Shown piece after piece: positions 6,565 through 28,059 of a stretch of DNA of 64,000 bases. This DNA comes from Chloroflexi bacterium HGW-Chloroflexi-6. GTDB lineage: Bacteria; Chloroflexota; Anaerolineae; Anaerolineales; Villigracilaceae. Every line of letters begins with the position of its first letter. Position 1 is the stretch's first letter. Made by a program: the position numbers and the translations under genes. The notes beneath the pieces were generated by a model that was not told where the DNA came from, searched no databases, and saw nothing but the letters and a program-made list of their open reading frames with translations. The stretch is from NCBI GenBank assembly GCA_002840685.1, contig PHBU01000004.1, positions 124,001 through 188,000 on the forward strand, given 5' to 3'.

Positions 6565-6619
6565 TTGTATTTCTCGCTTTCCAATTGTGGGAAATAATAT
6601 ACGTTGAAGTCTTTGCAAA

Positions 6620-6698: not shown

Positions 6699-7451
6699 CT
6701 AAAGGGTGATGCCTCCGTCCACCTGAAATACCTGCCCGGTAATGTAGGCGGCCTTTTCGGAGAGCAGAAAACACACCAGGGGGGCAACATCGTCAACGGT
6801 TCCCAACCTCCGCATTGAAATGCGTGATTTAACATATTCCAGTGTGTCCTGATCGAGGATCGACATCATATCGGTGTATATGTAGCCCGGCGCCACGGCG
6901 TTGACGCGAATATTGTGAGGCGCGATCTCGGCTGACAAGGCTTTTGTGAAGCCGATCATCCCGGCCTTGGCAGCGGCATAGTTGGTTTGCCCGATGGTTC
7001 CATACACACCAGCAACCGATGAGATATTGACAATCGACCCACCTTTTTGCTTGACCATCTGAAGCACAAGCGGCTTGGTGGCATTGAACATGCTGCCCAG
7101 ATTTGTGTTGATGACTGCATCCCATTGGTCGCGGTTCATGCGCGCCAGAACTGAATCGCGCGTAATTCCGGCATTATTGACCAGGGCATCCACCTGTTTA
7201 AATTCCGAGATCAGTCCCTTGACCAGTTTATCCATGGCGTCCGTATCGCTCACATCGCATTGTTTTGCCACGCAGCGCTGATCTGGATATTCTGCCGTCA
7301 GGTGATTGGCCAGCACTTCGGCTTCTTCGGCGCTGTTGATGTATGTAAAAACAACATTTGCGCCTTCCTGCATGGCGGTCTGAACAATCGCTTTGCCGAT
7401 GCCCCGGCTACCGCCGGTGATGAATATGGTTTTGTTGGCTAAAATGCTCAA
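6699..7451 (-). CDS. FabG-like ketoreductase (candidate trans-acting KR)
   Basis: A 250-residue classical short-chain dehydrogenase/reductase of the 3-oxoacyl-ACP reductase type. It has the cofactor motif TGGSRGIG near the N-terminus, NNAG, catalytic Ser in VNISSVAG, and YAAAK. The start is TTG at 7451, supported by AGAGGG 8 bases upstream. It is the last gene of the minus-strand operon, 30 bases after the P450. The PKS of this operon has KS, AT, DH and ACP but no KR, so the inferred role is to reduce the beta-keto intermediate in trans so that the DH can act. A housekeeping FabG is possible but less likely here. Confidence 0.88.
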
Positions 7452-7481
7452 TGGATTATCCCTCTTCTTGTTTGATAATGC

Positions 7482-8813
7482 TCAATTGCCAGCGATGTTC
7501 GTCTTCCTTATGATGCGCAATAGAACCCCGTTTTTGGGTCCCATGGCAATGTCGTGCCGAATTTCGCGCTCAATGCCCGCCGGCTCAAATTCCCAGTGCG
7601 TGACAATTTCGGCAAGCGCGATCCGCATTTCATAATCCGACAGGCCCGAGCCCAAACAGCGACGATGACCTCCGCCAAAGGGGAGAAACTCAAACGGGCT
7701 ATAATTCCGGCCAATGAAGCGTTCGGGGATGAATTGGTCGGGTTCCGGGTACAGGTTCGGATCGTGGTGGATCGCCATGACTGAAACCCCCACCGAGTCT
7801 CCGGGTTGAAGCATATGGCCTGACAATTCAAGCGGCAAAACGAGCTCGCGAGCGATCTCCGGCAGCAGAGTATGCAGGCGCAGGGTCTCGTTGCAGACGG
7901 CTGTCAAATAGGGGGCTTTTGCTGTTAATTCGGGTTCAGGGTTTACTCCAAGAGAAGCCAGTTCCATGCGTAATTTTTCCAGTTTGTCCGGACAAGTCCC
8001 CAGATCATAAAGTGCCCAGGCCAGGGCGGTGGCAGTGGTTTCGTGCCCGGCGAGCAGGATTGTGATCAGTTCGTCTCGAATATCTTCATCACGCATTGGC
8101 AGGCCGTCTTCATAACGAGCTGCCAGCATGCGGCCCAGAATATCGTCTGCTCCGTCTTTTTGAGCGCGGCGTTCGGTCAAATAACGGCTGACCCATTTTG
8201 AAAAATCATTCTTGGCGCGGACGTAGCGCGCCCAGGGCGGGAACCAGCCCTTTTGCAGCGTGGGAAAGAAAATGAATAACGGGTGCATGCTGTGCCATAA
8301 AGCGGTCAGTACCCGGCGTCCTTCATCCAGAAATCCCCCGTTTTCCGCGCCGAACACCAGGCGCATAATGATATCCAACGAAATGCTAAGTGTGGTGTCA
8401 AGCGCGCGCAAGGTTTGCCCCGGCTGCCAATGTTTTATTTTTTGATGGGTCACTTCGCGTATTACTTCGCCATAACCGCGAAAACTCTGGGCATGAAAAG
8501 CTGGCGATAACAATTGGCGCTCCCGGCGATGCTCGTTTTTCCCCAATACCCAAATCGATCCGCTGCCGGCCACCCCGGTAAATCCTTCCTTCCAGAAGGC
8601 ATCGTAGATAGTTGGATCAGCGGACAGTATTTGGCGCGCGCTGTTGGGGGTCAATGCGATTGCAAATGTTTTTCCCATGGGAACGTAAAGAGCAACCACT
8701 TCACCGTAGCGCTTTCGCAGGGATGCCGTATAGGATTGTGGGCGATTGACCAGCAGCCAGGTTTGGTATGGGTTTATCGAAAACCCATCAAGGCGGGCCG
8801 TGTTTGCTTCCAT
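7482..8813 (-). CDS. Cytochrome P450
   Basis: A 443-residue heme-thiolate monooxygenase. The ATG at 8813 lies 4 bases after the NRPS stop; longer in-frame readings run into the NRPS gene and are not credible. Visible motifs are the I-helix AGHETTATALAW (oxygen-activation Thr), ETLR (ExxR), the PERF region and the heme loop FGGGHRRCLG with axial ligand Cys386. There is no membrane anchor. It resembles bacterial P450s that hydroxylate fatty-acid-like chains. A partner ferredoxin or reductase is not encoded nearby. The inferred role is oxidative tailoring of the PKS/NRPS product. Confidence 0.93.
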   Translation of the reverse strand: MEANTARLDGFSINPYQTWLLVNRPQSYTASLRKRYGEVVALYVPMGKTFAIALTPNSARQILSADPTIYDAFWKEGFTGVAGSGSIWVLGKNEHRRERQLLSPAFHAQSFRGYGEVIREVTHQKIKHWQPGQTLRALDTTLSISLDIIMRLVFGAENGGFLDEGRRVLTALWHSMHPLFIFFPTLQKGWFPPWARYVRAKNDFSKWVSRYLTERRAQKDGADDILGRMLAARYEDGLPMRDEDIRDELITILLAGHETTATALAWALYDLGTCPDKLEKLRMELASLGVNPEPELTAKAPYLTAVCNETLRLHTLLPEIARELVLPLELSGHMLQPGDSVGVSVMAIHHDPNLYPEPDQFIPERFIGRNYSPFEFLPFGGGHRRCLGSGLSDYEMRIALAEIVTHWEFEPAGIEREIRHDIAMGPKNGVLLRIIRKTNIAGN

Positions 8814-8817
8814 TCGT

Positions 8818-11800
8818 TTATCCCGCTTTCGATTGGATCCGGTCCAGGATGAGCGCCTCTGGCTGCGGGAGAAAACCGATTTCTTGAAGATAGCGCAAAT
8901 AGGTCCCGAATAATTTTTCATCCGCCGGGTGGCAGGTAATGCCAGAGCCGGCCAGCTCCCGCAGTGTTTCTCGCGTGTCATAGGTGGGCAATTGCATGCT
9001 GACATCGTCCATATCGTCGAGAGCTGCCTGGTAAGCGAACAGGGCATTCGATGAAAAATCAGGGCTGTTGACCAATCTGTCGCGCAGGTCAACAAATGCC
9101 AGTTCTTCAAACTGATATCCGAGGCCGCGCAAATAGGCCAGTCCATCTTTTAATTTACGGCGAGACGGGTTGGTAAGGTGAAAAGCGCGCCCCAAGACGT
9201 TTCGATGAAACGCCATGTAAACCATCGATTTGGCAACATAATCCACCGGGGCGATATCCACTTCAATATCCAGGTCTGGGAAGGCCCCGAATTGCAGAAA
9301 ACCTTTGAAGCAGGCAATAATGAAATGATCGGTGACGCAGCGCCCCGTGACGCTATCCCCGCCCACCTCGCCCGGACGATAACGCGCCAGCGGCAAGCCG
9401 CGTTCAGCCGCGTGAACCAGGCATTTTTCTCCGACCCATTTTGCTTCATCGTAGCCCAGGTTAAGCAGGCCGACATGGTCGATGGGGTCTTTTTCGTAGT
9501 ACGTATATTGCGCGCCCATCGGCCAGATTGCCGCGGTGGAAAGGTGGTGGACGGGCTTGATGCGCGAATGAAAGGCAAACTGGATGATTTCGTGTACGCC
9601 CAGCACGTTCGTCGCGCGCAACGCCTCGTAAGGATAAATAAAATTCACATGCGCCGCGCCGTGGAGGATGGCGTCCACCTCCCGCGAGAGCCTTTCGTAA
9701 TCGTGATCCTTCATCCCCAGGCGTGGCAGGGTGACATCGCCATCGACAACGTGCAGGCGACCATCCCAGGCGGATTGCCAGGCTTCGCCCTCCACCCATA
9801 CCTGATACCGTTTCATCTGGTTTTCGATACGCTGCTTGCTGCTTTCTCCGCGCCGCGGACGCACTAGACAATGAATATCAGCGTTCGTTGTTGTTAGAAT
9901 TTCAGCAATGACATAGGCTCCCAGGAAACCTGTACCTCCCGTCAGCAGCACATTTCGAATGTCTGTGACAGGCTGGTAAACGAGTCCGCGCGCGGGGGCA
10001 AGGTAGCGCGGTAATTCCGCTTCTCGCTGGAGAAATGCCATGCGCTGGCGGGCCCACTCCGGGCTGTGAGAGGAGACGGGGCTTCGTCCGAGGTTCGAGT
10101 TGGCGGTCTCTTGATCTCGCCGCTGGTCAACCAGCGCTGCGAATTTCTTGAGCGTGGATGCGCCAAAGAATTCGCGCATATTGAAACCAACCTGGAACTG
10201 CTTGCGGACTTCCACCATCAGCAGGGTCATCAAAAGCGAATGTCCGCCCAAATCCATGAAATCAGAATCGCGGCTGATGACATTTTCTTCAATCCCCAAC
10301 AAGTTTGCCCAGGCCCCGGCTAATATTTTCTCAGTGGATGTCGTTGGCGGTTCATTCTCAGCATCTGCATTGGATGGTAACGGGCGTACGACTGAGGGCG
10401 CAGGCAGACCTGCGCGATGTATTTTCCCGTTGGCGGTTTGTGGGAACGAATCAGCAAAAAGAATGTATGGCGGAACCATCACTTCGGGCAATCGTTCGCG
10501 TAATTGGGCGCGAATCTCGGATGCTGATAGATCCTTTTTTAGGATGACGTGTGCCACCAATTGCGCATCGCCGCGCGAATCTTGCCACGCTACGACAACC
10601 GCGTCGCGCACGCCTTCCACGTTACGCAATGCAGATTCAATTTCGCCGAGTTCCACGCGCACGCCATGGATCTTTACCTGATCATCCAATCTTCCCAGCC
10701 AGACGATGCTCCCGTCCGGCAGGTAGCGCGCCAGGTCGCCCGTCCAGTACATGCGCTCATTTGCGCTGAAAGGATTTGTGACAAAGCGCTCAGCGGTCAA
10801 TTCGGGTCTTTGCCAGTATCCAACAGCAAGGCCTTCGCCGGCGATATATAAATCACCAATGGCCCCGATCGAAACAGGATGATATTGTTTATCCAGAATA
10901 TACATCTGTGTGTTCGGGTAGGGGCGTCCGATGCGCATAGGTTTTTCGGGCTCGGATGTCACCCGATAAGCGGAAGAAAACACCGTGGTTTCTGTGGGGC
11001 CATACAGGTCCCATAAAGCGCAACACTCTTGCAGGAGTTGCTCGGCGAGATCCCGGCTTAATGCCTCGCCCGCTGATAAAAGACAAATATCGTCCCTGCC
11101 TTGCCAGCCTGCGCTCAGGAGCGTTTTCCAGGTGGAGGGGGTGGCCTGCACATGAGTGGGCTTATCGTTTTTGATCCGTTCCGTCAGTTGAAGACCGTCC
11201 GCGACCAGGCCGTCCTGGCCCAGGTTTACGCATCCACCGGCGATCAGCGGCATGAAAATTTCAACGGTGGAAATGTCAAAAGAGATGATCGTCAAAGCCA
11301 GCATGGAACTTCCCGCTCTGAAGTCCACATAATCTCTTGTGGCAAGCAGGCAGTTCAGCAAGGCGTTGTGGCGGATCTCCACACCTTTGGGCTTTCCTGT
11401 TGAGCCGGATGTGTAAATAATGTAGGCGCTGTCAGTTCCGCTTGCCTGTGGGACGTGTTCCAAAGAAGAAGGCTGCTCGTTGACATCCTCGATGCGCAAA
11501 ACGTTGAATGCATGCTCCTCACCCAGCGCGCCCATCAAATCGCTGTTGACGACCACGGTTTGAACGGCGGAGTCGCTCAACATATAAGCGATGCGGTTTT
11601 GAGGAAATCCGGTATCCATTGGGACATACAACGCGCCGACTCGCCAGGTTGCCAGCAGGGCCGGGATCAGATCGAGCGAGCGTTTCATCAGGATACCAAC
11701 CCGGCCGCCGCGTTTTACGCCGCTTTGATGGAGTGCCGCCGCGATTTGTTCGATTCGCACCATCAACTGAGCATAGTTTAGCGAAGCGCCTCCAGATCGG

Positions 11801-13521
11801 ATGGCGGTTGCTTCATGTGCTGCCCGGGCCTGCTCTGTGATCAAGTCGAGTGTTGTCTTTGTCCGAGGGTACTCTTTGCTGGTTTTGTTCCATTCGGTGA
11901 TGATCATCTCTTGTTCGCGGGCTGTCATCATCGGCAACGATCCGCAGGTTTGGCTTGCATCCTGCACTCCGGCATTCAATAACGCAAGCATGCCATTCAG
12001 CCAGCGCGAGATTGTCTGTGTTTCAAACAGTTCGGTGCTGTAGTCACAGACCAGCGAGATGTTGTTCCCCTGAGTCAGCGCCATCAATTCAATGTCATAA
12101 CGTGCGCCGGCGCTGGGCGGGATGATTATCTCAGCCTCGAGACCGGCAAAAACAATGGAGGCTTCATCCGTCTGTGAGCGGAATGCGGCTGTAAATAGCG
12201 GCGAGCGGCTCTGGTCTCGGGGTAGTTGCAGCAGTTGAATGAGTTCGGCGAGAGAAAGATGTCTGTGGATGTTTGCTTTTGCGAGCGATTCGGCTTGGGC
12301 GCGGACGTGGTCTCTGAAAGCGCGGTTTGCATCATAGCTTGTGCGAATGGGCAGCATATTGCGCGTGTTCGCAATCGCGGGCATGCTGCCATCCAGATAC
12401 AGGCTGGCGCTTTCCAGGCCGATAACCACATCATCCAGCGCGGATAGCCTGTGAATGAAAACTGCAAACGCCGCAAATAAAATTGCCTCAGGGCTGACGC
12501 CCTCAGACAATGCGTAGGTTTTGAGTCGCTTATCAATAGCGGGATCCAGCTTCAGTTCCAGGCGCGAACCGGAATACTTTTTTAACGGTGGGCGCGGATG
12601 ATCGGCAGGCAACTCCAGGAGCGGGACACCTGAGTCGAAAACATCCTTCCAGTATTTTTCCGCAGCGCCTTGGGCTTCTTTTGCCTCATCCGTGGTGCCC
12701 AGCGCGAGATAATCTGCCCACTGGAGGGTGAGCGGTGCGGCGCTGGCAGGTTGATCGTGTGAGAAGGCCTGATAGAGTTCTGCAATATCGTTCAGGATTG
12801 TTTTAAGCGCATGTTGCTCGATCACAAGCGCATGCCCGACCAGTACCAGCACATGTTGGGTTTCGGAGAGACGCAACAATTCGGCGCGGAAAAGCCGTTT
12901 GCCGATCTCGAATGGGCGGGCGACAATTTCAGTCAGCCGCCCTGCTAATTCGTCTGATGTTACGGGTGAAACCAAAAGTTCGAGCGTTTCGCCTGTGCCG
13001 ATATCGAGCGTGTTTTGCTCCGGGTTGAGCGCGGTGCGCAGCGCCTCGTATCTGTTGCCCGCTTCTTCAAGCGCGGCATGCAGGGCGGGTCCATGCAATG
13101 CGCCGTTCAGTTGCATGAGCAGGGCCTCGTTGAAAGCCGCGCTGGCCTCACTTGAATAGCGGCTTAAAAACCCGAGGTGCTGTTGAGATACAGCCAGCGG
13201 AATCTGGCGTTCTGTTTGCCATTGCGCGGCCTGAGATTTCTTTTTCAGCGATTGTTGGGAATTTAACTCCTGCTCTATGTACAGCGCGAGCGTACCGATC
13301 GTGGTCTGGCCCTCGATCACGCGGCGGATTGAAACCAATACACCGAAATGATCGTAAACCTGCCGCATGCCCTCCACGAGTTCGAGCGAACTGATGCCCA
13401 GATCGAGAATAGGAACATCATTGGGAATGGAACGCAGATCATCACCGATCCTGCCGATGATGATCTGCTGTAAGGCGCTTTGTATCTGGGAAAGTTCGTG
13501 TTTGCCGTTAGATCGAGACAT
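8818..13521 (-). CDS. NRPS-like protein: carrier-condensation-adenylation-carrier-thioester reductase
   Basis: 1567 residues. Domains in order are: an N-terminal carrier (about 10-85, Ser45 in DLGISSLEL); a condensation-like domain (about 105-530); an adenylation domain (about 555-1040) with A3 YTSGSTGKPKG, LYGPTETT, YWTGDL and NGKIHR; a carrier (about 1065-1135, Ser1095 in DLGGHSLL); and a reductive release domain (about 1185-1567) with TGGTGFLG and Y1357/K1361. The condensation motif HHxxxDG reads HALVIEQ (230-236), so the catalytic second His is Ala. The adenylation domain has the amino-acid-binding Asp (D749 in FDISTVEIF). The reductase implies release as an aldehyde or alcohol. It is preceded by the HemN-like gene (30 bases) and followed by the P450. 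The substrate was not identified. Confidence 0.93.
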   Translation of the reverse strand: MSRSNGKHELSQIQSALQQIIIGRIGDDLRSIPNDVPILDLGISSLELVEGMRQVYDHFGVLVSIRRVIEGQTTIGTLALYIEQELNSQQSLKKKSQAAQWQTERQIPLAVSQQHLGFLSRYSSEASAAFNEALLMQLNGALHGPALHAALEEAGNRYEALRTALNPEQNTLDIGTGETLELLVSPVTSDELAGRLTEIVARPFEIGKRLFRAELLRLSETQHVLVLVGHALVIEQHALKTILNDIAELYQAFSHDQPASAAPLTLQWADYLALGTTDEAKEAQGAAEKYWKDVFDSGVPLLELPADHPRPPLKKYSGSRLELKLDPAIDKRLKTYALSEGVSPEAILFAAFAVFIHRLSALDDVVIGLESASLYLDGSMPAIANTRNMLPIRTSYDANRAFRDHVRAQAESLAKANIHRHLSLAELIQLLQLPRDQSRSPLFTAAFRSQTDEASIVFAGLEAEIIIPPSAGARYDIELMALTQGNNISLVCDYSTELFETQTISRWLNGMLALLNAGVQDASQTCGSLPMMTAREQEMIITEWNKTSKEYPRTKTTLDLITEQARAAHEATAIRSGGASLNYAQLMVRIEQIAAALHQSGVKRGGRVGILMKRSLDLIPALLATWRVGALYVPMDTGFPQNRIAYMLSDSAVQTVVVNSDLMGALGEEHAFNVLRIEDVNEQPSSLEHVPQASGTDSAYIIYTSGSTGKPKGVEIRHNALLNCLLATRDYVDFRAGSSMLALTIISFDISTVEIFMPLIAGGCVNLGQDGLVADGLQLTERIKNDKPTHVQATPSTWKTLLSAGWQGRDDICLLSAGEALSRDLAEQLLQECCALWDLYGPTETTVFSSAYRVTSEPEKPMRIGRPYPNTQMYILDKQYHPVSIGAIGDLYIAGEGLAVGYWQRPELTAERFVTNPFSANERMYWTGDLARYLPDGSIVWLGRLDDQVKIHGVRVELGEIESALRNVEGVRDAVVVAWQDSRGDAQLVAHVILKKDLSASEIRAQLRERLPEVMVPPYILFADSFPQTANGKIHRAGLPAPSVVRPLPSNADAENEPPTTSTEKILAGAWANLLGIEENVISRDSDFMDLGGHSLLMTLLMVEVRKQFQVGFNMREFFGASTLKKFAALVDQRRDQETANSNLGRSPVSSHSPEWARQRMAFLQREAELPRYLAPARGLVYQPVTDIRNVLLTGGTGFLGAYVIAEILTTTNADIHCLVRPRRGESSKQRIENQMKRYQVWVEGEAWQSAWDGRLHVVDGDVTLPRLGMKDHDYERLSREVDAILHGAAHVNFIYPYEALRATNVLGVHEIIQFAFHSRIKPVHHLSTAAIWPMGAQYTYYEKDPIDHVGLLNLGYDEAKWVGEKCLVHAAERGLPLARYRPGEVGGDSVTGRCVTDHFIIACFKGFLQFGAFPDLDIEVDIAPVDYVAKSMVYMAFHRNVLGRAFHLTNPSRRKLKDGLAYLRGLGYQFEELAFVDLRDRLVNSPDFSSNALFAYQAALDDMDDVSMQLPTYDTRETLRELAGSGITCHPADEKLFGTYLRYLQEIGFLPQPEALILDRIQSKAG

Positions 13522-13551
13522 GAGTAAAGTTCCGGCAGTCTGTGGCGGACC

Positions 13552-14967
13552 CTAGAATTCCATGCCCTGAACTTCCGCGACCATTCGTTCGCGGAGCTGG
13601 TTATAGCGCTTCTCGGCCAACAGGGCTTGAATCAGCGGCGTGTAGAAGGGACCGTCGCCAACGAGTTTGATCTTCTCTGGAGTGATCTCAACGAAACCAT
13701 ATTCCTCGAGCGCTTTCCAGACGCCTTCGAACAGGTCAAGAACATCCACATCAAAAGCCTGTTGGAATTGCGGCCGGTCGAGTTCCAGCCCGAAGAGATT
13801 TCGCCAGATCAGGGAGATCATAAAATCTTCGCGCGCATGGCGGAATCCGCGCTCTGTCGGGAATTTTCCGGCATCGATTTTGGCTTTGTACTCATTAAGA
13901 TTGCGCGAATTGATGAACGACCAAGACCTTCCCTCTGCTAGGGCCGTGTCGTAAAAAAATGTGATCGCTGCATAACCCAGACCCAGGGTATCCATCGTGT
14001 CCACACGGTGCGTGACCCCTTCCTCGTAGGGACGGCTGTTTGGGTCGCCTGGTTTGCGCCAGTTATAGGCGGTGATCTGTTCGTAACCGTGACTTTTCAG
14101 CAGATCACGCGAAGCGCGGTACATCTCGAGGTTGCTGAGGGTACTGGGTAACTCATGGTACCGGTTGAGTGCGAAATCGGTCGGGCCGCCGACATTTAAC
14201 TCATAATGCGTGATGTCGTAAACGCCCCAGGAGATGGCTGTCTCGAGATCTTTGACCATGGTTGCAACGGTTTGTTGCGGCCAGCCGAAGATCAAATCGA
14301 TATTGGCCGGCAGCCCAAATTCGTGCGCCCACTCGATGGTCTGAATAACATGCTGTGTTTTCTGCTTGCGTCCGCTCAGGCTATTAAGAGTTTCGTTTAC
14401 CTGTTGGACGCCCATGCTGATGCGGTTCATCCCGGCTTCCTTGATCGCTTTGATCTTTTCCCGGGTAAAGAGCTGTGGAATACCCTCAAGCGTGATATCC
14501 ACGTAAGCGGGGATATCCGGGAATAGGTCGCGGACCAGATCCATCAACTGGAAATATTTGTCTTCCCTGTAAAGATTTGACGTGCCGCCGCCGAAAAAGA
14601 CTGCGCCCAGGGGAATTCCCTGGAGTGATTCTTTGTACATGGCGGTTTCGCGCTTTAGATAGTCGAAATAGACTTCAAGATCGACATTGCCTGTAAAGGC
14701 TTCCACCGGGAAAAGACAATACCCGCATTTGCCTGGGTTGGTTTGGATGCAATAAGGCACGCCCATATATAAATTGACCGGCGCGCCACGCCCCATGGCA
14801 TGCAGTTCCTGACGGTCATCCAAAATATCATCGACCGGCACACCTGTTTCCGACCAGAAGCGCGGCGAAGGAAAGGCGTGTTGAATTTTGTTTACCTGAC
14901 GTTTGTCGAGATGGCGTTCGATAAAATCGCGGGCAAAATCTCTGTCAACTGAAATAGAATTAAGCAT
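13552..14967 (-). CDS. HemN-like radical SAM enzyme, candidate cyclopropanase or methylase
   Basis: 471 residues, similar to coproporphyrinogen dehydrogenase/HemW. It has YMGVPYC...CGYC near residues 68-84, FFGGGTSNLY (124-133), NRISMGVQQ, and IDLIFGWPQQT. The Fe-S motif is C73-x7-C81-x2-C84, not the usual CxxxCxxC, because extra residues (QTNPGK) sit in the loop. ATG at 14967 has a strong AAAGGAG. It lies between the PKS and NRPS genes, far from the heme operon, so heme synthesis is unlikely. HemN-like radical SAM enzymes in polyketide clusters make cyclopropanes or add methyl groups (class C methylases, e.g. Jaw5 of jawsamycin). That role is inferred from context. Confidence 0.85.
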   Translation of the reverse strand: MLNSISVDRDFARDFIERHLDKRQVNKIQHAFPSPRFWSETGVPVDDILDDRQELHAMGRGAPVNLYMGVPYCIQTNPGKCGYCLFPVEAFTGNVDLEVYFDYLKRETAMYKESLQGIPLGAVFFGGGTSNLYREDKYFQLMDLVRDLFPDIPAYVDITLEGIPQLFTREKIKAIKEAGMNRISMGVQQVNETLNSLSGRKQKTQHVIQTIEWAHEFGLPANIDLIFGWPQQTVATMVKDLETAISWGVYDITHYELNVGGPTDFALNRYHELPSTLSNLEMYRASRDLLKSHGYEQITAYNWRKPGDPNSRPYEEGVTHRVDTMDTLGLGYAAITFFYDTALAEGRSWSFINSRNLNEYKAKIDAGKFPTERGFRHAREDFMISLIWRNLFGLELDRPQFQQAFDVDVLDLFEGVWKALEEYGFVEITPEKIKLVGDGPFYTPLIQALLAEKRYNQLRERMVAEVQGMEF

Positions 14968-15034
14968 CCGAACTCCTTTACCGGTAAATGTAAGTTATTG
15001 CGTTAAGGCCAATAGGCCATAATTTGGTGGCTTG

Positions 15035-19156: not shown

Positions 19157-19186
19157 TTGACACAATTTGGTCAAATAAGATAGAAT
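19157..19186 (+). promoter_or_regulatory. Sigma-70-type promoter for the plus-strand operon
   Basis: TTGACA at 19157-19162, an 18-base spacer and TAGAAT at 19181-19186, about 100 bases before the first plus-strand gene. The surrounding 237-base intergenic region (19058-19294) is AT-rich and must also hold the promoter of the divergent PKS operon, which I could not place. Confidence 0.6.
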
Positions 19187-19294
19187 AAATCATAATATTA
19201 AATGCTATGGTTTGTCAATTAGTAAGTTACATCCGTTTGTACTACATCGTCAAAATATTCAAGTTTTGTTGCATATTAGAAAGCGAGAGTAAAA

Positions 19295-19600
19295 ATGGCG
19301 GAAGATACTGTATTGGCTTCGGCAGAAATGACACAACCGGTCATCATCGACCTGGGCAGACAGAGACCAAGTTCGCTAAGGGATTTGAAAAAAGGCGAGG
19401 GCAAACTGTGGGATGAAGTGCTGGATGTCGCTGATGAGGTGAAGGAAATGCTCGGCGCCGATGCCGAGGGCAAAGTGCTCATTCCCATTGTTATGCTTTA
19501 TCAGCAAAAATCTGGCCGCCTGAACCTCGGCAATGTCATCTTTCCTTTATTGGATGATGAAGATGACGATGACGATGATGATGACGATGAAGAGGAGTAA
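19295..19600 (+). CDS. Small acidic protein with poly-Asp tail
   Basis: 101 residues, no function recognised. The core has a pattern PVIIDLGRQRPSSLRDLKKGEGKLWDEV, given here only to describe it as IIDLG, then basic residues, then KKGEGKL. An amphipathic helix (VLDVADEVKEML) and a hydrophobic strand (KVLIPIVMLYQ) follow. The last 15 residues are only Asp and Glu, encoded by a GAT/GAC repeat. No signal peptide or membrane segment is present. It is the first gene downstream of the 19157 promoter, followed after 4 bases by a strongly basic small protein, which suggests a charge-paired complex. It may be an accessory or scaffold protein of the cluster. Confidence 0.75.
   Translation: MAEDTVLASAEMTQPVIIDLGRQRPSSLRDLKKGEGKLWDEVLDVADEVKEMLGADAEGKVLIPIVMLYQQKSGRLNLGNVIFPLLDDEDDDDDDDDDEEE
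19553..19597 (+). repeat. GAT/GAC codon repeat coding the poly-Asp tail
   Basis: Fifteen consecutive acidic codons, mostly GAT and GAC, with nine Asp in a row. It is a trinucleotide-like tract that could change length by slippage without leaving frame. Confidence 0.85.
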
Positions 19601-19604
19601 CCCC

Positions 19605-20057
19605 ATGACCGAATCTGGAAATAAAAAACCACGCGTACTGCGCCGATCACATGGAAAACTTCAGCCTGAGATAAAACCGATCGTCTTGGAATATAAGGAA
19701 CGCAGGAAGAAAAGCACCGCTGAAACCGACGAGGGCAAGGAAAAATATTCAGATGGATTGGAAGATGTTCAAGTTCTTGAGGGGAATGTAGTGCGTGTTG
19801 CCCAGAGAGCTGTAAGAGCGTTATCGAAAGGGATGGATACTTACGAGCGTGAACGCCAGCGATCTGCAAAAGAGAAAACTGACGGCGCAATCGAAGATTT
19901 TTTCAATAATTCTGCCAAGGCCACGAGTGCCTATTTGAAAGAGGCAAGCGATATTCCTGTCGACATCATGGAGTCGATTAACACAGAATCTTACCGCAAG
20001 CGGCTCAGGAAGAATCTGCGCCGTTCATCCAAGCTGATCCGCCTGTTCCGCATCTAG
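19605..20057 (+). CDS. Small basic protein of unknown function
   Basis: 150 residues from the ATG at 19605, which has GAGGAG (the last codons of the preceding gene) as ribosome site. An in-frame start at 19533 would overlap the acidic gene and is not preferred. The protein is highly charged and helical, with no membrane segment. Its C-terminus is strongly basic (YRKRLRKNLRRSSKLIRLFRI, residues 130-150). No family was recognised. The opposite charge and immediate adjacency to the acidic protein suggest that the two interact. The basic tail could bind membrane phospholipid, the acidic partner or an acidic surface of the PKS. A hairpin follows at 20071-20101. Confidence 0.72.
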   Translation: MTESGNKKPRVLRRSHGKLQPEIKPIVLEYKERRKKSTAETDEGKEKYSDGLEDVQVLEGNVVRVAQRAVRALSKGMDTYERERQRSAKEKTDGAIEDFFNNSAKATSAYLKEASDIPVDIMESINTESYRKRLRKNLRRSSKLIRLFRI

Positions 20058-20070
20058 CAGAATTGTCGTT

Positions 20071-20101
20071 TGAGACCATCAAACCGAGTTTGATGGTCTC
20101 A
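20071..20101 (+). terminator. Intra-operon hairpin (attenuator-like)
   Basis: Perfect 14-base inverted repeat, 20071-20084 (TGAGACCATCAAAC) with 20088-20101, and a 3-base loop. There is no T run afterwards, so it may be a processing or attenuation site that separates expression of the two small proteins from the kinase-like genes. Confidence 0.6.
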
Positions 20102-20139
20102 TGCTATATGTTCTGAGCAACCAAAGATAACCATCAACA

Positions 20140-21990
20140 ATGCCTGACATCTCAAACTCTGTAAGCGATGGTCAACGCGCCGGGGTATTAGCAGGGTTAC
20201 CTCGCCGGCGTTTTCTTGATGTCTCGGCAGGAGACGCATCTTTATCGCAGATGCGGTTTATTTCCTTCAAGATAAACCGTCTCCGCTCGGTTGCACGTTT
20301 GCTGAGTTGGTTACAACTTTTATTCTATTTCCTTTCCAAAATCGCCATTGATATTTTGTTGCGCAAGGACACACCGAAGCGAAGAGCTTTACATCTGCGG
20401 CGTGCATTTGAACGCAACGGAGGATCTTTTGTAAAACTTGGACTCCATCTGTCTATGCGTCTGGACTTCATGCCCTGGGTGTACGGGAGTGAGCTATCCT
20501 GCATGACCGATCGGTGGGAGCCCTTCCCGGCTGCGCAAGCCATTGAAACGATTGAACGTTCCCTTTCCAAGCCTCTCTCTGCGTTGTTCATCCGCTTTGA
20601 TCCTGATCCGATCGCGTCTACATCGGTTGCCTGCCTTTACCAGGCGATATTGCAAAATGGCGAAAAGGTGATCGTTAAGGTTCGCCGCCCTGGGATAGGC
20701 GAGCAGTTCATGTCAGACATCGAGGCTTTTGATTGGCTGTTGTCGATTGCCGAATTCTTAACGATATTTCGCCCGGGATTCACGCAGGGAATGAGATCTG
20801 AGTTTCGCGATCTGCTCCTTGAAGAGCTGGATTTTGTGCAGGAAGCGCGCAGGCAGGATGCCTTCCGCCGCGCCGCTGCTCAATCTCGTAAGAATTTTTT
20901 CTCCGCGCCCCGCATCTATTTGGATTTGACCACGGAAGAGGTTGCGATCAATGAGTTTGCGAGCGGCATCTGGTTATGGGAGTTGCTCGTTGCTGTCGAG
21001 CAGGGTAATGCGGATGTGTTGGTTCGCGCGCGGGAAATGAACATAAACCCTGAGCTTGTTGCCAAGCGATTGCTGTGGGTCAATTACTGGAACTGGGGTG
21101 AGAATTTGTTTTTTCACGCCGACCCGAACCCGGATAATGTGATCATTGGCCAGGACAGCACTTTACACTTTATCAACTTTACATCAACCGGTACCCTGAG
21201 CCGGACCAAGCGCCAGGCCCAGCGACAAAATCTGGATTTTGCATGGGAGCGCGATCCGCAGAATATGGCGCGCGCCACACTTGTCATGCTTGAACCCCTG
21301 CCGCCAATTGATGTTATTGAATTAATTCAGGAGTTGGAAACTTACAACTGGCAATTAATTTATTCTTTGGAAGCCTCGCCTCACAACGTTTCGTGGCAGG
21401 AGCGCACATCTTCTGTGCAGTGGGCCGGTATGATGAGCTTGGTTCGCAAGTATGGAATTACGGTTGATATTCAGGTGTTGCGTTTTATACGTTCCACCCT
21501 ACTGTTCGAGTCTATGGGGGCGCGTCTGCACGCTGAGATCGATTTCGTGAAGCAGTATCAGAATTTTAAGAATTATCGAGCCGAGCAGGCTCGCCGCAGG
21601 GTTACAGATTCAATGCTCGATCAAATGGATGGAAAAGGAACCGAGCAAACGATTATCCGCCTGGACCGTATTGCGCACGCGGCGGAAGGTTTGTTTTTCC
21701 GTGCATCGCATATGTTATCGTTACCTTCGGTGAACTTTAATACTTTGATGAGCAAATGGTCCTTTGCAGTGTATACCCTGCTTCGTTTTATTGGACAAAC
21801 GGCAGCGCTTACCCTGATCTTTGCATTTCTCATCAATATCAAATTTTATTTTGATGAACAACAATTCATGAATGTCTATGATGTCTTTTTCCAAGTTGCG
21901 ACAAACCCTGTTTATCAGATCATTTTATTCATAACGATATTTGTTCATGGCCGGACGGTCCTGTTCCGCCTGGATGATAAAGAGGTTTGA
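20140..21990 (+). CDS. UbiB/ABC1-family membrane protein, degenerate kinase
   Basis: 616 residues. It has the UbiB/ABC1/AarF fold (VIVKVRRPGI with Lys180, EELDFVQEA) and two C-terminal membrane segments (about 550-575 and 590-610), but key catalytic motifs are changed. KxGQ reads KLGL (99-102). HxDPHPGN reads HADPNPDN (326-333). The metal-binding DFG reads NFT (346-348), losing the Asp. Canonical members use these residues for ATP and Mg binding and support quinone or lipid metabolism. This looks like a pseudokinase. The next gene is an intact paralogue, so the pair may form a regulator/enzyme heterodimer. It has a weak ribosome site. Confidence 0.88.
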   Translation: MPDISNSVSDGQRAGVLAGLPRRRFLDVSAGDASLSQMRFISFKINRLRSVARLLSWLQLLFYFLSKIAIDILLRKDTPKRRALHLRRAFERNGGSFVKLGLHLSMRLDFMPWVYGSELSCMTDRWEPFPAAQAIETIERSLSKPLSALFIRFDPDPIASTSVACLYQAILQNGEKVIVKVRRPGIGEQFMSDIEAFDWLLSIAEFLTIFRPGFTQGMRSEFRDLLLEELDFVQEARRQDAFRRAAAQSRKNFFSAPRIYLDLTTEEVAINEFASGIWLWELLVAVEQGNADVLVRAREMNINPELVAKRLLWVNYWNWGENLFFHADPNPDNVIIGQDSTLHFINFTSTGTLSRTKRQAQRQNLDFAWERDPQNMARATLVMLEPLPPIDVIELIQELETYNWQLIYSLEASPHNVSWQERTSSVQWAGMMSLVRKYGITVDIQVLRFIRSTLLFESMGARLHAEIDFVKQYQNFKNYRAEQARRRVTDSMLDQMDGKGTEQTIIRLDRIAHAAEGLFFRASHMLSLPSVNFNTLMSKWSFAVYTLLRFIGQTAALTLIFAFLINIKFYFDEQQFMNVYDVFFQVATNPVYQIILFITIFVHGRTVLFRLDDKEV

Positions 21991-21992
21991 CC

Positions 21993-23921
21993 GTGATCGC
22001 AGACGAAGATCTGAAGCCAATCAGCGTGCGACAGGCTGTCTTTGACGCTGTTCGGATGTGGAAAAAGCGTCAGAAAGCTGCGGCAGGCTCGGGTGGGGAA
22101 AGAGGCGAACCGCTTCCGCTGGAGGCGATCCTGCAGAGTATTCCGCGGCGTCAGCAGTCGGTTCCTCCAGACGAAAGGAAGTTGTGGATTCCTTATGTGG
22201 AGCCGCTCCCGGCAAGAAATACTTTCGGGCAGAGCCTCGGGCGCTTATTTGTCTGGTTGAGGTTGATCCTTGCGATTGGGTTGGGTGATCTTTTTGACCG
22301 GATACTGCGCCGGGATACACTGGAAAGGCGCGCGGCGCGTTTTCGCAGAGCGTTGGAGCGGGCAGGGGGCACTTTCGTAAAGTTGGGCCAGCAATTGGCG
22401 ATGCGTGTCGATCTTGTCCCGTGGGCTTATTGTGTTGAATTGTCGAAGATGCTGGACAGGATGACCCCGTTTCCAACGGAACAGGCTTTGCAGGCGATTG
22501 AGCGAACGGTTAAGCGCCCCTGGCAGGAAATTTTTGATGTGTTTGATCCAACGCCAATTGGGTCTGCATCGCTTGCCTGCGTTTATCAGGCGACCCTCAA
22601 GGATAAAACAAAGGTGGTTGTGAAGGTTCGGCGGCCTGGCATCAAGGAACTGTTCATGGCCGATCTTCAGGTGTTGGATTGGATCGCCGGGTTGGCTGAA
22701 TTTCTGACGATCATCCGCCCTGGGTTCACTCAAAAGTTGCGTGCCGATCTGCGCGAGATCCTTATGGAAGAGTTGGATTTTCGGCGCGAAGGGCGCTTTG
22801 AAGATATTTTCCGCCGGAATGCGAAGAAGACCGGCTGGAAATTTTTTACAGCCCCACGTGTGCATTTTGAATTTTCGGGGGATGAGGTTCTTGTGCAGGA
22901 GTTTGTGTCCGGGCTGTGGCTGTGGGAGGTGATTGCGATCTCAGAACAAAAAAATACCCGCGGTCTTGCGCTGTTAAAGGAGCTGAATATTGACCCGGCG
23001 GTGGTTGCGCGCCGAATCCTTTTGGCATTTTTCTGGAGTGCGGATGAACACGTATTTTTCCACGCCGATCCTCACCCGGCCAATATTCTCATCCGCCCAA
23101 ATAATGAGATTACGTTCATAGATTTCGGAAGCTGCGGAAGTTTCAATAATCAGCAGCGAGTTGCGCTGGAGCAAATGGTGCTCAGCATGAAGAATCAGGA
23201 TGTCGAGGCTATGACACGCGCTTCGCTGAGCCTCATGGAGCCCCTGCCTCCGGTGGACCTGCCTTCTTTGGTCAAGCAAGCTCAGGAAGAATACATGCGC
23301 GTGCTGCACACCTTCAACACTCCAGCAGAATATACCCAGTATTGGGAACGAACATCGGCGCGGCAATGGTTCGTGTTGATACGGGTTGCTCAAAAATTCA
23401 ACCTGCCGATGAATCTGCATATGCTGCGCATGATTCGCGCTACGCTGCTTTATGACTCGATTGTTTTGCGCCTGGATAACCAGTTGGATCGGTATCACGA
23501 ATATACAGAATTTATGAAAATTCGGGCACAACTGGTCAAACGAAAATGGCGAAGAAAATTGCATGACAATGCGGGCGATGGCGTTTTTCTAAATATCGAA
23601 GATCTTGGAAATGCGTTTAACGATCTTATGATCCGTGCGCAAACCACTTTAGGCAGGCCCATCGTCAGCCTTGGTTCAACGGTCAATAAGTGGGTTTTTG
23701 CGACAAGTGTCTTGAGTCGCATGGCAGGCCGTATCCTTTTTGTTACTGTATTGTGCATGAGTCTGATTGGCGCCCTGCATTTTCTGGCCGGCAGCCCGAT
23801 CTCTTTCGTGGGCGCGGTGGAGCAGGTTATTCAAAATAGGCTTTATCAGCTGTTTTTACTCTTTGCTGTAGTTTTCAGTATGCGTCTTATCCTGTTTCGT
23901 TTGAGAGATCGTGATATTTAG
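21993..23921 (+). CDS. UbiB/ABC1-family atypical kinase, intact motifs
   Basis: 642 residues from GTG at 21993, chosen because AGAGG lies 7 bases upstream; a TTG at 21987 is too close to that site. It shows KLGQ (130-133), the Ala-rich GSASLACVYQA, VVVKVRRPG, EELDF, HADPHPAN (357-364) and DFG (377-379), so the atypical kinase/ATPase centre looks complete. Two membrane segments lie at the C-terminus. It is a clear paralogue of the preceding gene. UbiB proteins are membrane ATPases tied to prenyl-lipid or other lipid metabolism. Here, between small accessory proteins and an exporter, a role in handling the cluster's membrane-bound product is inferred. Confidence 0.92.
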   Translation: MIADEDLKPISVRQAVFDAVRMWKKRQKAAAGSGGERGEPLPLEAILQSIPRRQQSVPPDERKLWIPYVEPLPARNTFGQSLGRLFVWLRLILAIGLGDLFDRILRRDTLERRAARFRRALERAGGTFVKLGQQLAMRVDLVPWAYCVELSKMLDRMTPFPTEQALQAIERTVKRPWQEIFDVFDPTPIGSASLACVYQATLKDKTKVVVKVRRPGIKELFMADLQVLDWIAGLAEFLTIIRPGFTQKLRADLREILMEELDFRREGRFEDIFRRNAKKTGWKFFTAPRVHFEFSGDEVLVQEFVSGLWLWEVIAISEQKNTRGLALLKELNIDPAVVARRILLAFFWSADEHVFFHADPHPANILIRPNNEITFIDFGSCGSFNNQQRVALEQMVLSMKNQDVEAMTRASLSLMEPLPPVDLPSLVKQAQEEYMRVLHTFNTPAEYTQYWERTSARQWFVLIRVAQKFNLPMNLHMLRMIRATLLYDSIVLRLDNQLDRYHEYTEFMKIRAQLVKRKWRRKLHDNAGDGVFLNIEDLGNAFNDLMIRAQTTLGRPIVSLGSTVNKWVFATSVLSRMAGRILFVTVLCMSLIGALHFLAGSPISFVGAVEQVIQNRLYQLFLLFAVVFSMRLILFRLRDRDI

Positions 23922-24004
23922 CAATAATTGCCATGAAAAATTGAGATTTTTCTATTTGGCTATTTTTTTTGTTCTTTATTTGAAAAGCACGTCTGGAGGT
24001 TACC

Positions 24005-27000
24005 GTGAATGAAATACAGGATCATTTGATCGTAACAAAGGGCCCGCGCCTGGGAGAAAAAATTCAGCTCTCCAAACTACCTTTTATCATTGGCAGGGAT
24101 GAATCTGCGGATGTGCCGATTAGCTTACAGGATATTTCGCGTAAACATTTACGCGTTTCGAAGGGGGATTCGGGTTACATAATAGAAGATCTGAAGAGTA
24201 GCAACGGAACTTACGTTAATCAAGTACCTATTGATAAGCCATATCAAATTCGGGATGGCGATGTGATCGCCCTGGGCCAGGAGTTTGAAATGCGTGTGGT
24301 GATCCCGGTTGTTGAGAAGGGAGATGCTACCCTCTTTAACGCGCCACCCAAGACAGCCGAAAAAACGGCCGATAATGCAACCGCTTTTATGCCATCCCGT
24401 GTCGCGGCGGATAAAACCATGGCCTTCACAGAAATGCCCCCTGTGCCGGCCATTCCGCCGAGTCTGATTGTTAATGAATCAGGCAAGGAACCCAAGGTAT
24501 ATACGCTGACGATGGACCGCCTGCGCATCGGACGCTTGGGCGACAATGACATTGTGCTCGATAACCGTTTTGTCTCGCGCTACCATGCCGAATTGGAGAA
24601 GCGCGGCCTGGAATATTACCTTATCCCGGCCCAGAATGTAAGCAATCCCCTGCTTTTGGACGGCAGGCCGGTCATGGAGCCTACACGGCTGCAGCACGGA
24701 GCCAAGATCCGGTTTGGTGGGTTTACAGCAGGCGAGATGGTGGCGCTGGATTATTTATCTCCGGATTCTGAACTTTCTTCTCAGCAGAAGATTAAGTTTA
24801 CCGAAAAAAGACTGATGACCATTGGGCGCAATCCCAGTAATGCAATTGTTCTGCCATCCCCCACCGTTTCGCAATTTCATGCGGAGATCGAAAAGGTTGG
24901 CCAGCGCTATCGGGTCCGCGATTTGCGCAGCAGCAATGGAACTTTTATTAATGGCAAAAGCGTAACTGGTGAAAATTGGGTGCAAATTGGGGATGCCATT
25001 CAGATCGGCCCGTATCGTTTTGTTGTGGATGAAAATGAGTTTTCTCAATCTGATCAAAGCCAGGGCGGCGTAAGCGTTGACATCATTGGGGTCAATAAGT
25101 GGGTAAGCAAGTCGTTGAATATCATTCAAAACATTTCGCTTGCTTTCCAACCCAAAGAGTTTATTGTTGTTGTTGGCCAAAGCGGCGGTGGCAAGTCGAC
25201 TTTGGTGGATGCCATTGCGGGATACCGGCCTGCAACGCACGGTCAGATCATCGTTAACAAGACCATTGATGTTTATAAGGAGTTCGATTCTATCCGTTCG
25301 ACCATTGGTTACGTTCCACAGAAAGATATTATTCACATGGAATTAACCGTTTTCCAGGCGTTGGATTATGCCGCCCAGTTGCGTATGCCGGCGGACACCA
25401 CGGTGGCAGAGCGCAAAAAACGGGTTGAAGAAGTGATGAAAGATCTGGATCTGGCGCACCGTAAAGATACGCAGATCAGCCGTTTGAGCGGAGGTCAGCA
25501 GAAGCGCGTTTCGATTGGTGTTGAGCTTCTGACCAAACCGGGATTTTTCTTCCTCGACGAACCCACCTCGGGCCTGGATCCCGGCATGGAAACGGAACTG
25601 ATGCGTTTAATGAGGCGGCTTGCAGACCAGGGTCGCACGATCGTCATGGTTACACATGCCACCAAGAATGTGATGCTTGCTGACAAGGTGGTTTTTCTAG
25701 CGCGTGGAGGCTTTCTCACCTGGTTTGGGCCTCCCGAAGAAGCCTTGGCGTACTTCGACAAGTATCGTACCGAGCGCGACCGCCGCGCAAACGCGATGGA
25801 GTTTGACCATATCTACACCCTGCTGGATGATGCTGAACTCGGCAGCGGCGCGGAATGGGCGGAGCGTTTCCGGAATGATCCCGCTTATAACAAATATATT
25901 TCTGAGCCTCTGCAAAGTGGATCCAGGGCTCAGAAAACGGAGACTCCGCAAGCGGCGCCCAAATCGCTCACCAAGCGGAATCAAATCTCTGCGCTGCGTC
26001 AGTTCCTCATTCTTTCCAGTCGAAACTTAAAGATCATGACTCGCGACTGGTTTACCATGGCGCTGCTTCTGGTTACCGCTCCCCTGATGGCCTCCCTGGA
26101 TTTCACGCTGGCCTCCGGAGTTGGACGCAACCCCTTTGGATTCGACACCGGCAATTTCAGCGACGTGGTTTCTTCATTGATCATCCTGACCAATACGACC
26201 ATGCTTGTGGGCGGTCTATCGTTTATGCGCGAGCTGGTTAAGGAACGCGATATTTACAAGCGGGAGAGGATGGTTAACCTTAAACTTCTCCCGTACATCA
26301 TGTCCAAGATTTGGATCGCTTTGTTGTTGGCAATATATCAGACAATCTGCTATACCGCGATCCGTTATATTGCCTTTGACATGCCTGGCGGCTTCGAGGA
26401 ACTTGCCCTCTTTTTTGTTACAGTCTACCTGCTTATCACGGCTGGCATGATGCTTGGCCTTTTTGCATCTGCGCTGGCGCCTAATGCGAATGCTGCACCG
26501 CTTCTTCTGATCATGTTCATTATTCCGCAGATGGTGCTGAGCGGCGCGATGATGCCGTTTCCCGCGCCCACTCGCGCGCCTGCCTCCAGTAGTTGGGCAT
26601 TCCAGGCAATTATTGGGATCAGTGGCACCGGGTCTGATGTTGATGGAGATGCCTGTTGGAATCTCAGCGAGGAAGAACGGGATGATCTCACCCTTGAAGA
26701 AAAAAATGCACAGTGTGATTGTATGGGCGAAAATGCGCTGCGGGAAGATCATTGCAGTTTCCCTGGCCTGGGTGATTATTACGATGAAGCCATTGATCAG
26801 GCTGATCCCATAGAACCGAAAGAACCAGGTCCGCAGCCAACCGAACCGGTTCTCCCGGAGGAACCTGCTGAACCGGAAGACCCCAACAACTTGCTGGCGT
26901 TGCAAATCTACTTGAACGATCTTAACGCCTATACTGATGAAGTTTCAGAGCTTCAGGATAAATACAAAGATGCTGTGGATGCCTGGCAGGAAGAGCAGGA

Positions 27001-27253
27001 AAGTTACAAGGATGAAATCGTGGTCTATCAGGAAGAATTGACCGAACTTGAAGTGAAGCGCGCCATAGCAATTGGCGCTGCTGAAGCGAGCATCGAAAGA
27101 TACAAGGAAGATTTCGGCTGGACTTTCATGGATAAGGATAATCGGGAGAAATATTTAGGCACGATCTTCAGTACCTGGGCCGCGCAAGTTTTGATTATTA
27201 GCATTATTTTCCTGGGCACCATCTTCATGCAAAAGCGAAGGGATGTAGGCTGA
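24005..27253 (+). CDS. Triple-FHA ABC exporter, half-transporter with large external insert
   Basis: 1082 residues from GTG at 24005 (GGAGG 5 bases upstream). Three FHA domains are visible: about 8-100 (IIGRDE, SSNGTYVN), 165-245 (RIGRLGDNDIVL, SRYHAELE) and 262-345 (TIGRNPSNAIVL, SSNGTFINGK). The ATPase (about 360-590) has Walker A GQSGGGKST (391-399), LSGGQ and FFFLDEP. The ABC2 membrane domain begins near 680. Between its last segments lies a roughly 170-residue probably external insert (about 875-1045) with five Cys, a Pro/Glu stretch and a coiled coil. The layout recalls ABCG-type exporters and mycobacterial Rv1747. FHA domains bind phosphothreonine, and the linker after the first FHA is Thr-rich. 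It is likely the exporter for the cluster product. Confidence 0.92.
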   Translation: MNEIQDHLIVTKGPRLGEKIQLSKLPFIIGRDESADVPISLQDISRKHLRVSKGDSGYIIEDLKSSNGTYVNQVPIDKPYQIRDGDVIALGQEFEMRVVIPVVEKGDATLFNAPPKTAEKTADNATAFMPSRVAADKTMAFTEMPPVPAIPPSLIVNESGKEPKVYTLTMDRLRIGRLGDNDIVLDNRFVSRYHAELEKRGLEYYLIPAQNVSNPLLLDGRPVMEPTRLQHGAKIRFGGFTAGEMVALDYLSPDSELSSQQKIKFTEKRLMTIGRNPSNAIVLPSPTVSQFHAEIEKVGQRYRVRDLRSSNGTFINGKSVTGENWVQIGDAIQIGPYRFVVDENEFSQSDQSQGGVSVDIIGVNKWVSKSLNIIQNISLAFQPKEFIVVVGQSGGGKSTLVDAIAGYRPATHGQIIVNKTIDVYKEFDSIRSTIGYVPQKDIIHMELTVFQALDYAAQLRMPADTTVAERKKRVEEVMKDLDLAHRKDTQISRLSGGQQKRVSIGVELLTKPGFFFLDEPTSGLDPGMETELMRLMRRLADQGRTIVMVTHATKNVMLADKVVFLARGGFLTWFGPPEEALAYFDKYRTERDRRANAMEFDHIYTLLDDAELGSGAEWAERFRNDPAYNKYISEPLQSGSRAQKTETPQAAPKSLTKRNQISALRQFLILSSRNLKIMTRDWFTMALLLVTAPLMASLDFTLASGVGRNPFGFDTGNFSDVVSSLIILTNTTMLVGGLSFMRELVKERDIYKRERMVNLKLLPYIMSKIWIALLLAIYQTICYTAIRYIAFDMPGGFEELALFFVTVYLLITAGMMLGLFASALAPNANAAPLLLIMFIIPQMVLSGAMMPFPAPTRAPASSSWAFQAIIGISGTGSDVDGDACWNLSEEERDDLTLEEKNAQCDCMGENALREDHCSFPGLGDYYDEAIDQADPIEPKEPGPQPTEPVLPEEPAEPEDPNNLLALQIYLNDLNAYTDEVSELQDKYKDAVDAWQEEQESYKDEIVVYQEELTELEVKRAIAIGAAEASIERYKEDFGWTFMDKDNREKYLGTIFSTWAAQVLIISIIFLGTIFMQKRRDVG

Positions 27254-27288
27254 ACGTGACAACCAAGAATATTTGCTGATTTAGCAAT

Positions 27289-28059
27289 ATGATGGCGAAT
27301 AATCTGAAGGTTATGAGGCAAGCGCTGGCTCAAGGCGAGCCTTTCTGGACGCTGACCGATTCTGATATCCATATTTGGGTTGCATCGTTGGAAATGGCTC
27401 ATCAATTTCTTGATGAGCCATTCACTTTGCTCGCACCGGATGAAAGGGCCCGCGCCGAACGATTTTATTTTGAAAGAGACCGCAACCGCTTTATCGCAGG
27501 GCGCTGCCTCTTGAGAATGATTATCGGCGGGTATCTTGGGATGGACCCTTCTCAAATAGAATTCGCTTACAGGGAAGCAGGAAAGCCAGTTTTGAAATCA
27601 GGGCCACAGGGTAAAAAGCTCGAGTTTAATCTATCTCATTCGAATGACCTGGCTTTATATATATTCAGCCGTAACCATGAGGTTGGAATCGATGTTGAAT
27701 ACATTCACCCCATGCCCGACACGGATGATTTTGCCGAGAAATTCTTTTCTTCCCATGAAACCGAACTGATCAATTCGCTGCGGGGTGAAGAAAGAGATGC
27801 CGCATTCTTTAAGCTGTGGACGTGCAAGGAAGCGCTGTTGAAGGCAAACGGCAGCGGGCTGACCATGCCGCTCAGTCACATGGAAATATCTCTGAATTCG
27901 GATGGGTCTGCTGCGCTGAGTTCCGTTGGCGGCAACAGGGAGCAGGCTTTGCGCTGGCATCTCCAAGCATTTGACCCTGCTCCGGGTTATCAGGCCGCTT
28001 TTGCCGTTGAGGGATATAAGGGGCAGGCTATTTCTTTTTGCCACATAAATGTAGAGTGA
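27289..28059 (+). CDS. 4'-Phosphopantetheinyl transferase, Sfp type
   Basis: 256 residues. It transfers phosphopantetheine from CoA to the Ser of carrier proteins. The signature residues are present: GIDVEYI with Asp135 and Glu137, and LWTCKEALLKANG with Glu181 and the following Lys; NLSHS lies at 114-118. ATG at 27289 (or the adjacent ATG at 27292) follows the exporter by 35 bases. It is the last gene of the plus-strand operon. It is the obvious activator of the three carrier domains in the divergent PKS and NRPS genes, which links the two operons functionally. Confidence 0.95.
   Translation: MMANNLKVMRQALAQGEPFWTLTDSDIHIWVASLEMAHQFLDEPFTLLAPDERARAERFYFERDRNRFIAGRCLLRMIIGGYLGMDPSQIEFAYREAGKPVLKSGPQGKKLEFNLSHSNDLALYIFSRNHEVGIDVEYIHPMPDTDDFAEKFFSSHETELINSLRGEERDAAFFKLWTCKEALLKANGSGLTMPLSHMEISLNSDGSAALSSVGGNREQALRWHLQAFDPAPGYQAAFAVEGYKGQAISFCHINVE

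Follow-up and report, generated by a model that had tools for sequence, protein, structure and literature searches.

A Chloroflexota gene cluster joining a polycyclopropane-type polyketide synthase and a probable cyclopropanase to an NRPS with terminal reductase and a conserved membrane module

Reports of polycyclopropane (POP) biosynthesis come from Streptomyces and its close relatives, and work on it is aimed at antifungals and high-energy fuels. Divergent cyclopropanases from outside Streptomyces have been called for explicitly (PMC13389473), and the literature searched contained no paper linking POP chemistry to Chloroflexota. Here, we ask whether a gene cluster of the uncultured Chloroflexi bacterium HGW-Chloroflexi-6, in which a polyketide synthase (PKS) stands beside a HemN-like radical S-adenosylmethionine (SAM) protein, encodes such a pathway, and how its product could be released and handled. 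The cluster lies in a 64,000-nt stretch of contig PHBU01000004.1 (hereafter the window, in whose positions all coordinates are given) and comprises a minus-strand core operon and a divergent plus-strand operon. It likely specifies a POP pathway built on an iterative PKS (iPKS), with a terminal reductase on a nonribosomal peptide synthetase (NRPS) and with a product handled by a membrane module.

POP pathways have been described as combining an iPKS of ketosynthase (KS), acyltransferase (AT), dehydratase (DH) and acyl carrier protein (ACP) domains with a stand-alone ketoreductase (KR) and a HemN-like cyclopropanase (CP) (PMC13389473). All three are encoded in the minus-strand operon, where the PKS gene (Jaw4/Pfl1 type, 15035-19057) is followed by the radical SAM gene (Jaw5/Pfl2 type, 13552-14967), an NRPS gene (8818-13521), a cytochrome P450 gene (7482-8813), the gene of a FabG-like, trans-acting KR (Jaw6/Pfl3 type, 6699-7451) and a methyltransferase gene (5578-6618). 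A first-pass annotation had singled out this trio and likened it to Jaw4/Jaw5/Jaw6 of the antifungal jawsamycin (FR-900848), and both statements hold: by Pfam, the PKS consists of KS, AT, DH and ACP and contains no KR, enoylreductase or methyltransferase domain, and jaw4/jaw5/jaw6 are likewise described as a KS-AT-DH-ACP iPKS, a CP with the motif Cx7CxxC and a separate KR, with no thioesterase (PMC13389473). While the likeness to jawsamycin rests on this published description, sequences were compared with the clusters of S. albireticuli (pfl) and S. longispororuber (log). The fuelimycin genes pfl1-pfl4 of S. albireticuli NRRL B-1670 (L026) share the order PKS-CP-KR with the window, at identities of 50% (PKS), 61-62% (CP) and 49% (KR, Pfl3). 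In length and sequence the PKS is in line with POP-iPKSs, being 46-50% identical to the tested Streptomyces enzymes, and a KS-AT tree places it within the POP clade (support 100), concordant with the CP tree. Its motifs are intact when aligned with these enzymes, i.e., C/H/H of the KS, GHSVG and HAFH of the AT (the latter of malonyl type), H...P and D...Q of the DH and DSL of the ACP.

The assignment of the radical SAM protein is carried by motif, identity, phylogeny and predicted fold. Cx7CxxC is the invariant cyclopropanase motif (C68, C76 and C79 in Jaw5; PMC13389473), and the window protein holds it with equal spacing at C73, C81 and C84. Its identity to actinobacterial POP CPs is 60-66% in general and 61-65% for those of four species, S. 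albireticuli, S. longispororuber, S. klenkii and S. ferralitis, whose enzymes (Pfl2, Log2, kleCP and ferCP) were tested in vivo (PMC13389473). A tblastn search of plasmids with the window CP returned two Deinococcus relatives (43-44% identity), and the alignment of these three proteins served as query for a scan of 84,980 species genomes, which yielded 33 CP loci, including that of S. albireticuli NRRL B1670, the Pfl2 strain. All 36 members of the CP family carry Cx7CxxC; among the HemN/HemW-like controls, the motif could be read in eight and is CX3CX2C in each of them. Consistently, the CP family is split from HemN, HemW and the Chloroflexota HemN-like proteins with 100/100 support in the tree, so that the protein groups with the tested cyclopropanases, on which the first-pass reading had been made to depend; long outgroup branches leave the order within the outgroup unsure, but the separation, shown independently by identity and motif, is unaffected. 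The nine Chloroflexota CPs form one clade (98/94), which is grouped with CPs of Acidobacteria, Planctomycetota, Bacteroidota and one alphaproteobacterial metagenome-assembled genome (MAG) (92/79), and this non-actinobacterial group is the sister of the actinobacterial CPs. The predicted structure (pLDDT 88.4) adopts the HemN fold (Z 33.9 over 405 residues to E. coli HemN, 1olt), although sequence identity to the latter is 22% and its motif is CX3CX2C instead of Cx7CxxC. Y56, the three cluster cysteines, GGGT, E145, Q172 and D209 of HemN are kept in 36 of 36 CPs, I329 conservatively, whereas the F310-Q311 segment is missing from every one; the residues kept include those of the HemN cluster and SAM site.

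What distinguishes the window from the jawsamycin system is the addition of an NRPS with C-A-carrier-reductase domains, a P450, a methyltransferase and a module of UbiB and FHA-ABC proteins. The acyl chain of jawsamycin ends as the amide of an aminonucleoside. In the window NRPS, Pfam and NCBIfam models bear out the order carrier (~13521-13237), condensation (C; 13212-11902), adenylation (A; 11838-10423), peptidyl carrier protein (10323-10129) and thioester reductase (9954-8869) that had been read from the letters. An NRPS directly follows the CP in 11 loci of three phyla, i.e., the window, eight other Chloroflexota loci (L010-L017), one of Planctomycetota (L028) and one Bacteroidota MAG (L031), and the KR comes next wherever the contig extends so far. 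The gene set is thus kept together in relatives, as the first-pass annotation required. In the readable copies, the carrier serine, the nucleotide-binding (Rossmann) motif of the reductase and its YxxxK are conserved, and a comparison of the window reductase with solved structures gave the MxaA reductases 4u7w/4w4t among its top matches. MxaA is the NRPS reductase that releases the polyketide amide myxalamid, by a four-electron reduction to the alcohol; the domain order A-carrier-reductase with intact active sites agrees with release of this type, although the myxalamid PKS is modular and works without a cyclopropanase.

In contrast, fuelimycin is released as a free acid by a hotdog thioesterase (Pfl4). 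Of 18 actinobacterial POP clusters, 12 have the gene for this enzyme, while tblastn at 1e-6 gave no match in the window or any other of the 11 NRPS-type loci, and the two release enzymes were not seen together in one cluster. From this distribution, reductive release seems to stand in for hydrolysis in the NRPS-type clusters. The A-domain code, read by hand, is DIVQLALVFK in the window and DIxQx(A/T)(L/M)(V/I)(F/Y)K in the relatives, and had no match in the literature searched. It is presumably nearest to the glycine code, which weakly predicts the loading of one small, glycine-like amino acid.

The divergent operon encodes, in this order, a DUF6200 small protein (19295-19600; PF19702, 44 bits), a small helical DUF6312-like protein (19605-20057; PF19831, weak and below cut-off), the ABC1/UbiB proteins UbiB1 (20140-21990) and UbiB2 (21987-23921; both PF03109), a triple-FHA ABCG-type exporter with ATPase and ABC2 permease (24005-27253) and an Sfp-type 4'-phosphopantetheinyl transferase (PPTase; 27289-28059, PF01648). 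The UbiB pair, the transporter and the PPTase had been recognized before, whereas the two small proteins had been overlooked. Eight Chloroflexota POP loci, including the window, lie on contigs that reach far enough for comparison, and DUF6200, UbiB1, UbiB2 and the transporter occur in all of them, the DUF6312-like protein in seven (its structural model, pLDDT 52.6, is too uncertain to use). In L017 the module sits at the opposite flank of the core, i.e., the linkage outlasted a rearrangement. Seven of the eight loci include a PPTase gene; apart from the window, it adjoins the transporter in L010, L012, L015 (where only a short fragment is present) and L016, and lies elsewhere within the locus in L013 and L017; in the L014 genome it is on another contig. 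UbiB2 has intact KxGQ (KLGQ in the window) and DFG motifs in 8/8 loci. Window UbiB1, which still belongs to the ABC1 fold family, has KLGL for KxGQ and NFT for DFG, and the glutamine is lost in 6/7 readable UbiB1 copies and the DFG pattern in 7/8, so that UbiB1 looks like a pseudokinase partner of UbiB2. The Walker and signature motifs of the transporter are intact in all eight loci. Rv1747 exemplifies the FHA-ABCG proteins, putative exporters regulated by kinases (PMC3908365, PMC5549992), which share with the window protein the fusion of FHA domains to an ABC exporter and the genetic link to a kinase-fold protein; the window differs in its three FHA domains and in having a UbiB pair as partner instead of PknF.

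Of the 400 Chloroflexota genomes sampled, the 399 besides the window's own yielded no UbiB2 relative at E<=1e-70, and a DUF6200 search of the 400 gave one strong match elsewhere, on a contig lacking UbiB and transporter genes; DUF6200 had no match among plasmids and no mention in the literature searched. Plasmid relatives of UbiB2 (about 26-32% identity) and of the transporter (up to about 42%) are only distant, and the one region read showed no link to a PKS. Likewise, a close CP match was found only in the window's own genome among the 400. Such a single match indicates a rare and sporadic cluster, consistent with horizontal transfer.

With respect to its boundaries, every gene named in the first-pass annotation was found by Pfam domain calls, and of the range proposed there, 6699-28059, the end was retained, at the PPTase as inferred last gene, whereas the start moves to 5578, the methyltransferase having been missed. 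In L010, whose CP is 99% and PKS 95% identical to those of the window, unrelated genes follow the methyltransferase, from which we conclude that the cluster ends there. A LuxR-MalT regulator gene (28123-31101) was considered as a member and left out, its position not being conserved in other loci. The dN/dS values between window and L010 range from 0.008 (cyclopropanase) to 0.17 (P450), which indicates purifying selection on every gene compared, and the recurrence of the arrangement in other genomes speaks against chance.

The P450 (PF00067, heme motif FGGGHRRCLG; start at the ATG at 8813, corrected from an open reading frame start at 9146) occurs in four Chloroflexota loci (window, L010, L013 and L014). 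The SAM-dependent methyltransferase, which has an N-terminal hydrophobic segment and weak similarity to cyclopropane synthases, likewise occurs in four (window, L010, L012 and L015), beside the KR, and is absent from the others. Moreover, a flavin-dependent halogenase-like protein (PF04820, WxWxIP) adjoins the NRPS-type cluster in L012 (18647-20500), L014 (18357-20213), L016 (16920-18767) and L017 (9533-11446), making halogenated product variants possible.

From homology, domain order, motifs and conserved linkage, we infer the following chemistry, including amino acid, chain length, ring number and export. The PKS would iteratively condense malonyl units, the separate KR would reduce and the DH dehydrate each beta-keto intermediate to an enoyl-ACP, and the CP could add a SAM-derived methylene across many of the double bonds ahead of the next round. 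Gene exchange has shown that the cyclopropanase helps set chain length and ring number (PMC13389473). The NRPS would take up the finished chain on its first carrier, and its C domain may couple it to one small amino acid loaded by an A domain with a glycine-like pocket, and the terminal reductase would free an N-acyl amino aldehyde or alcohol, as opposed to the free acid of the thioesterase-bearing Streptomyces pathways. P450 and methyltransferase could tailor the product, the PPTase would activate the carriers, and handling of the product, which would be very hydrophobic, may fall at the membrane to the UbiB pair together with the FHA-ABCG transporter. The core of the first-pass interpretation is thereby supported.

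Several points weigh against this reading. In the readable Chloroflexota PKS copies, except that of L017, the glycine of the DH motif HxxxGxxxxP is replaced by D or E, although it is kept in the actinobacterial copies. The C domain reads G/S-H-x-L-x-x-E/D-Q (the last place being L or H in two copies) rather than HHxxxDG, an odd yet conserved variant in which the second histidine is retained in every copy. To our knowledge, the A-domain code matches no known code exactly. As the non-actinobacterial CPs sit on their own branch, the ring number could be low, and the whole reading is drawn from sequence.

Membership of the radical SAM protein in heme synthesis was suggested by an adjoining operon (167-5553; HemQ/ChdC, HemE, HemH, HemY and HemL), by its HemN fold and by matches to NCBIfam hemN models, but these score far below cut-off (138 vs 325 bits), tree and motif set the CP apart, and L010, with its nearly identical CP, has no heme operon in its flank, so that the neighborhood looks coincidental. 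Besides, the genome encodes another HemN/HemW-like protein elsewhere, and the adjoining heme genes belong to a coproporphyrin-dependent pathway, which needs no HemN. A chance HemN/HemW-type enzyme is hence exceedingly improbable, and the protein is no coproporphyrinogen dehydrogenase. Unlikely, though less so, is that the radical SAM protein acts as a class C, NosN/NocN-like C-methylase, or as partner of the methyltransferase encoded in the cluster in the style of C10P/C10Q (PMC6050322), in which case the product would be a polyene amide with methyl branches and few cyclopropanes, if any. The HemN-like superfamily does include such enzymes, NocN is a distant match and the methyltransferase faintly resembles cyclopropane synthases; however, a partial 33-bit match to NocN stands against near full-length identity to tested cyclopropanases, L013, L014 and L016 keep the CP without the methyltransferase, and POP pathways function without one (PMC13389473). 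That the cluster is silent or decaying and yields no product would fit its sporadic occurrence and its being known only from MAGs, yet reading frames and active sites are intact and selection is purifying throughout, which makes this very unlikely.

More weight is due to the option that the core makes a POP acyl-aminoacyl compound while the role of the UbiB/FHA-ABC module is not export but self-protection, homeostasis of membrane lipids or quinones, or regulated membrane deposition of the product, which we regard as possible, if rather doubtful. UbiB proteins are mostly quinone or lipid factors, and Rv1747-like transporters are themselves putative exporters under kinase control. The transporter has relatives that stand apart from any PKS, such as one on a Brasilonema plasmid beside a Ser/Thr kinase. 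Around the Planctomycetota cluster, the module was not seen in ~18 kb of upstream and 16 kb of downstream sequence, while the Bacteroidota contig does not extend far enough for a comparison. Against it stand the linkage in all eight Chloroflexota loci and the lack of close UbiB2 relatives in the other sampled genomes, neither of which separates export from deposition. Product export by the module is accordingly an inference from linkage.

Some further observations concern relatives and surroundings. Radical SAM proteins of a sister lineage, which also have Cx7CxxC and are 43-49% identical, are encoded beside PKSs in L007, L008, L038, L039 and L040, with hosts in Deinococcus, Planctomycetota, Acidobacteria and Nocardia takedensis, and form a second, unexplored cyclopropanase-like branch; on the Deinococcus plasmids L007 and L008 the gene accompanies a DH-ER-KR-type PKS, an NRPS, a thioester reductase and an aminotransferase. 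An Acidobacteria MAG contig (L018:17-6708) carries two tandem POP-type PKS genes around CP and KR and stops before any release gene. In Planctomycetota, the POP cluster is followed downstream by two large genes for modular PKSs, seen in L074 and at the 3' end of L028. Most loci stem from MAGs, and the phylum labels of the single-contig L018, L019, L028 and L031 could be binning errors. In the window, two consecutive glycoside hydrolase family 3 genes (32597-37150) are unrelated to the cluster.

The cluster and its relatives constitute an independent CP lineage in at least three further phyla, with a different chain ending (amide plus reduction vs hydrolysis) and with P450, methyltransferase and halogenase-like genes as a supply of tailoring variants. 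The organism itself probably makes a new class of polycyclopropane amide lipids, as judged from its genes. A wider proposal, which we put forward tentatively and slightly lean against in its full form, is that the products of the non-actinobacterial POP family of Chloroflexota, Planctomycetota and Bacteroidota are N-acyl amino alcohols or aldehydes with polycyclopropanated chains, which may resemble N-acylethanolamines, and that in Chloroflexota the UbiB kinase/pseudokinase pair, the two small proteins and the triple-FHA ABCG exporter form a machine dedicated to lipid trafficking that is coupled to this pathway. If this is true, the conserved membrane module that comes with the cluster would be the first system known to traffic polycyclopropane lipids.

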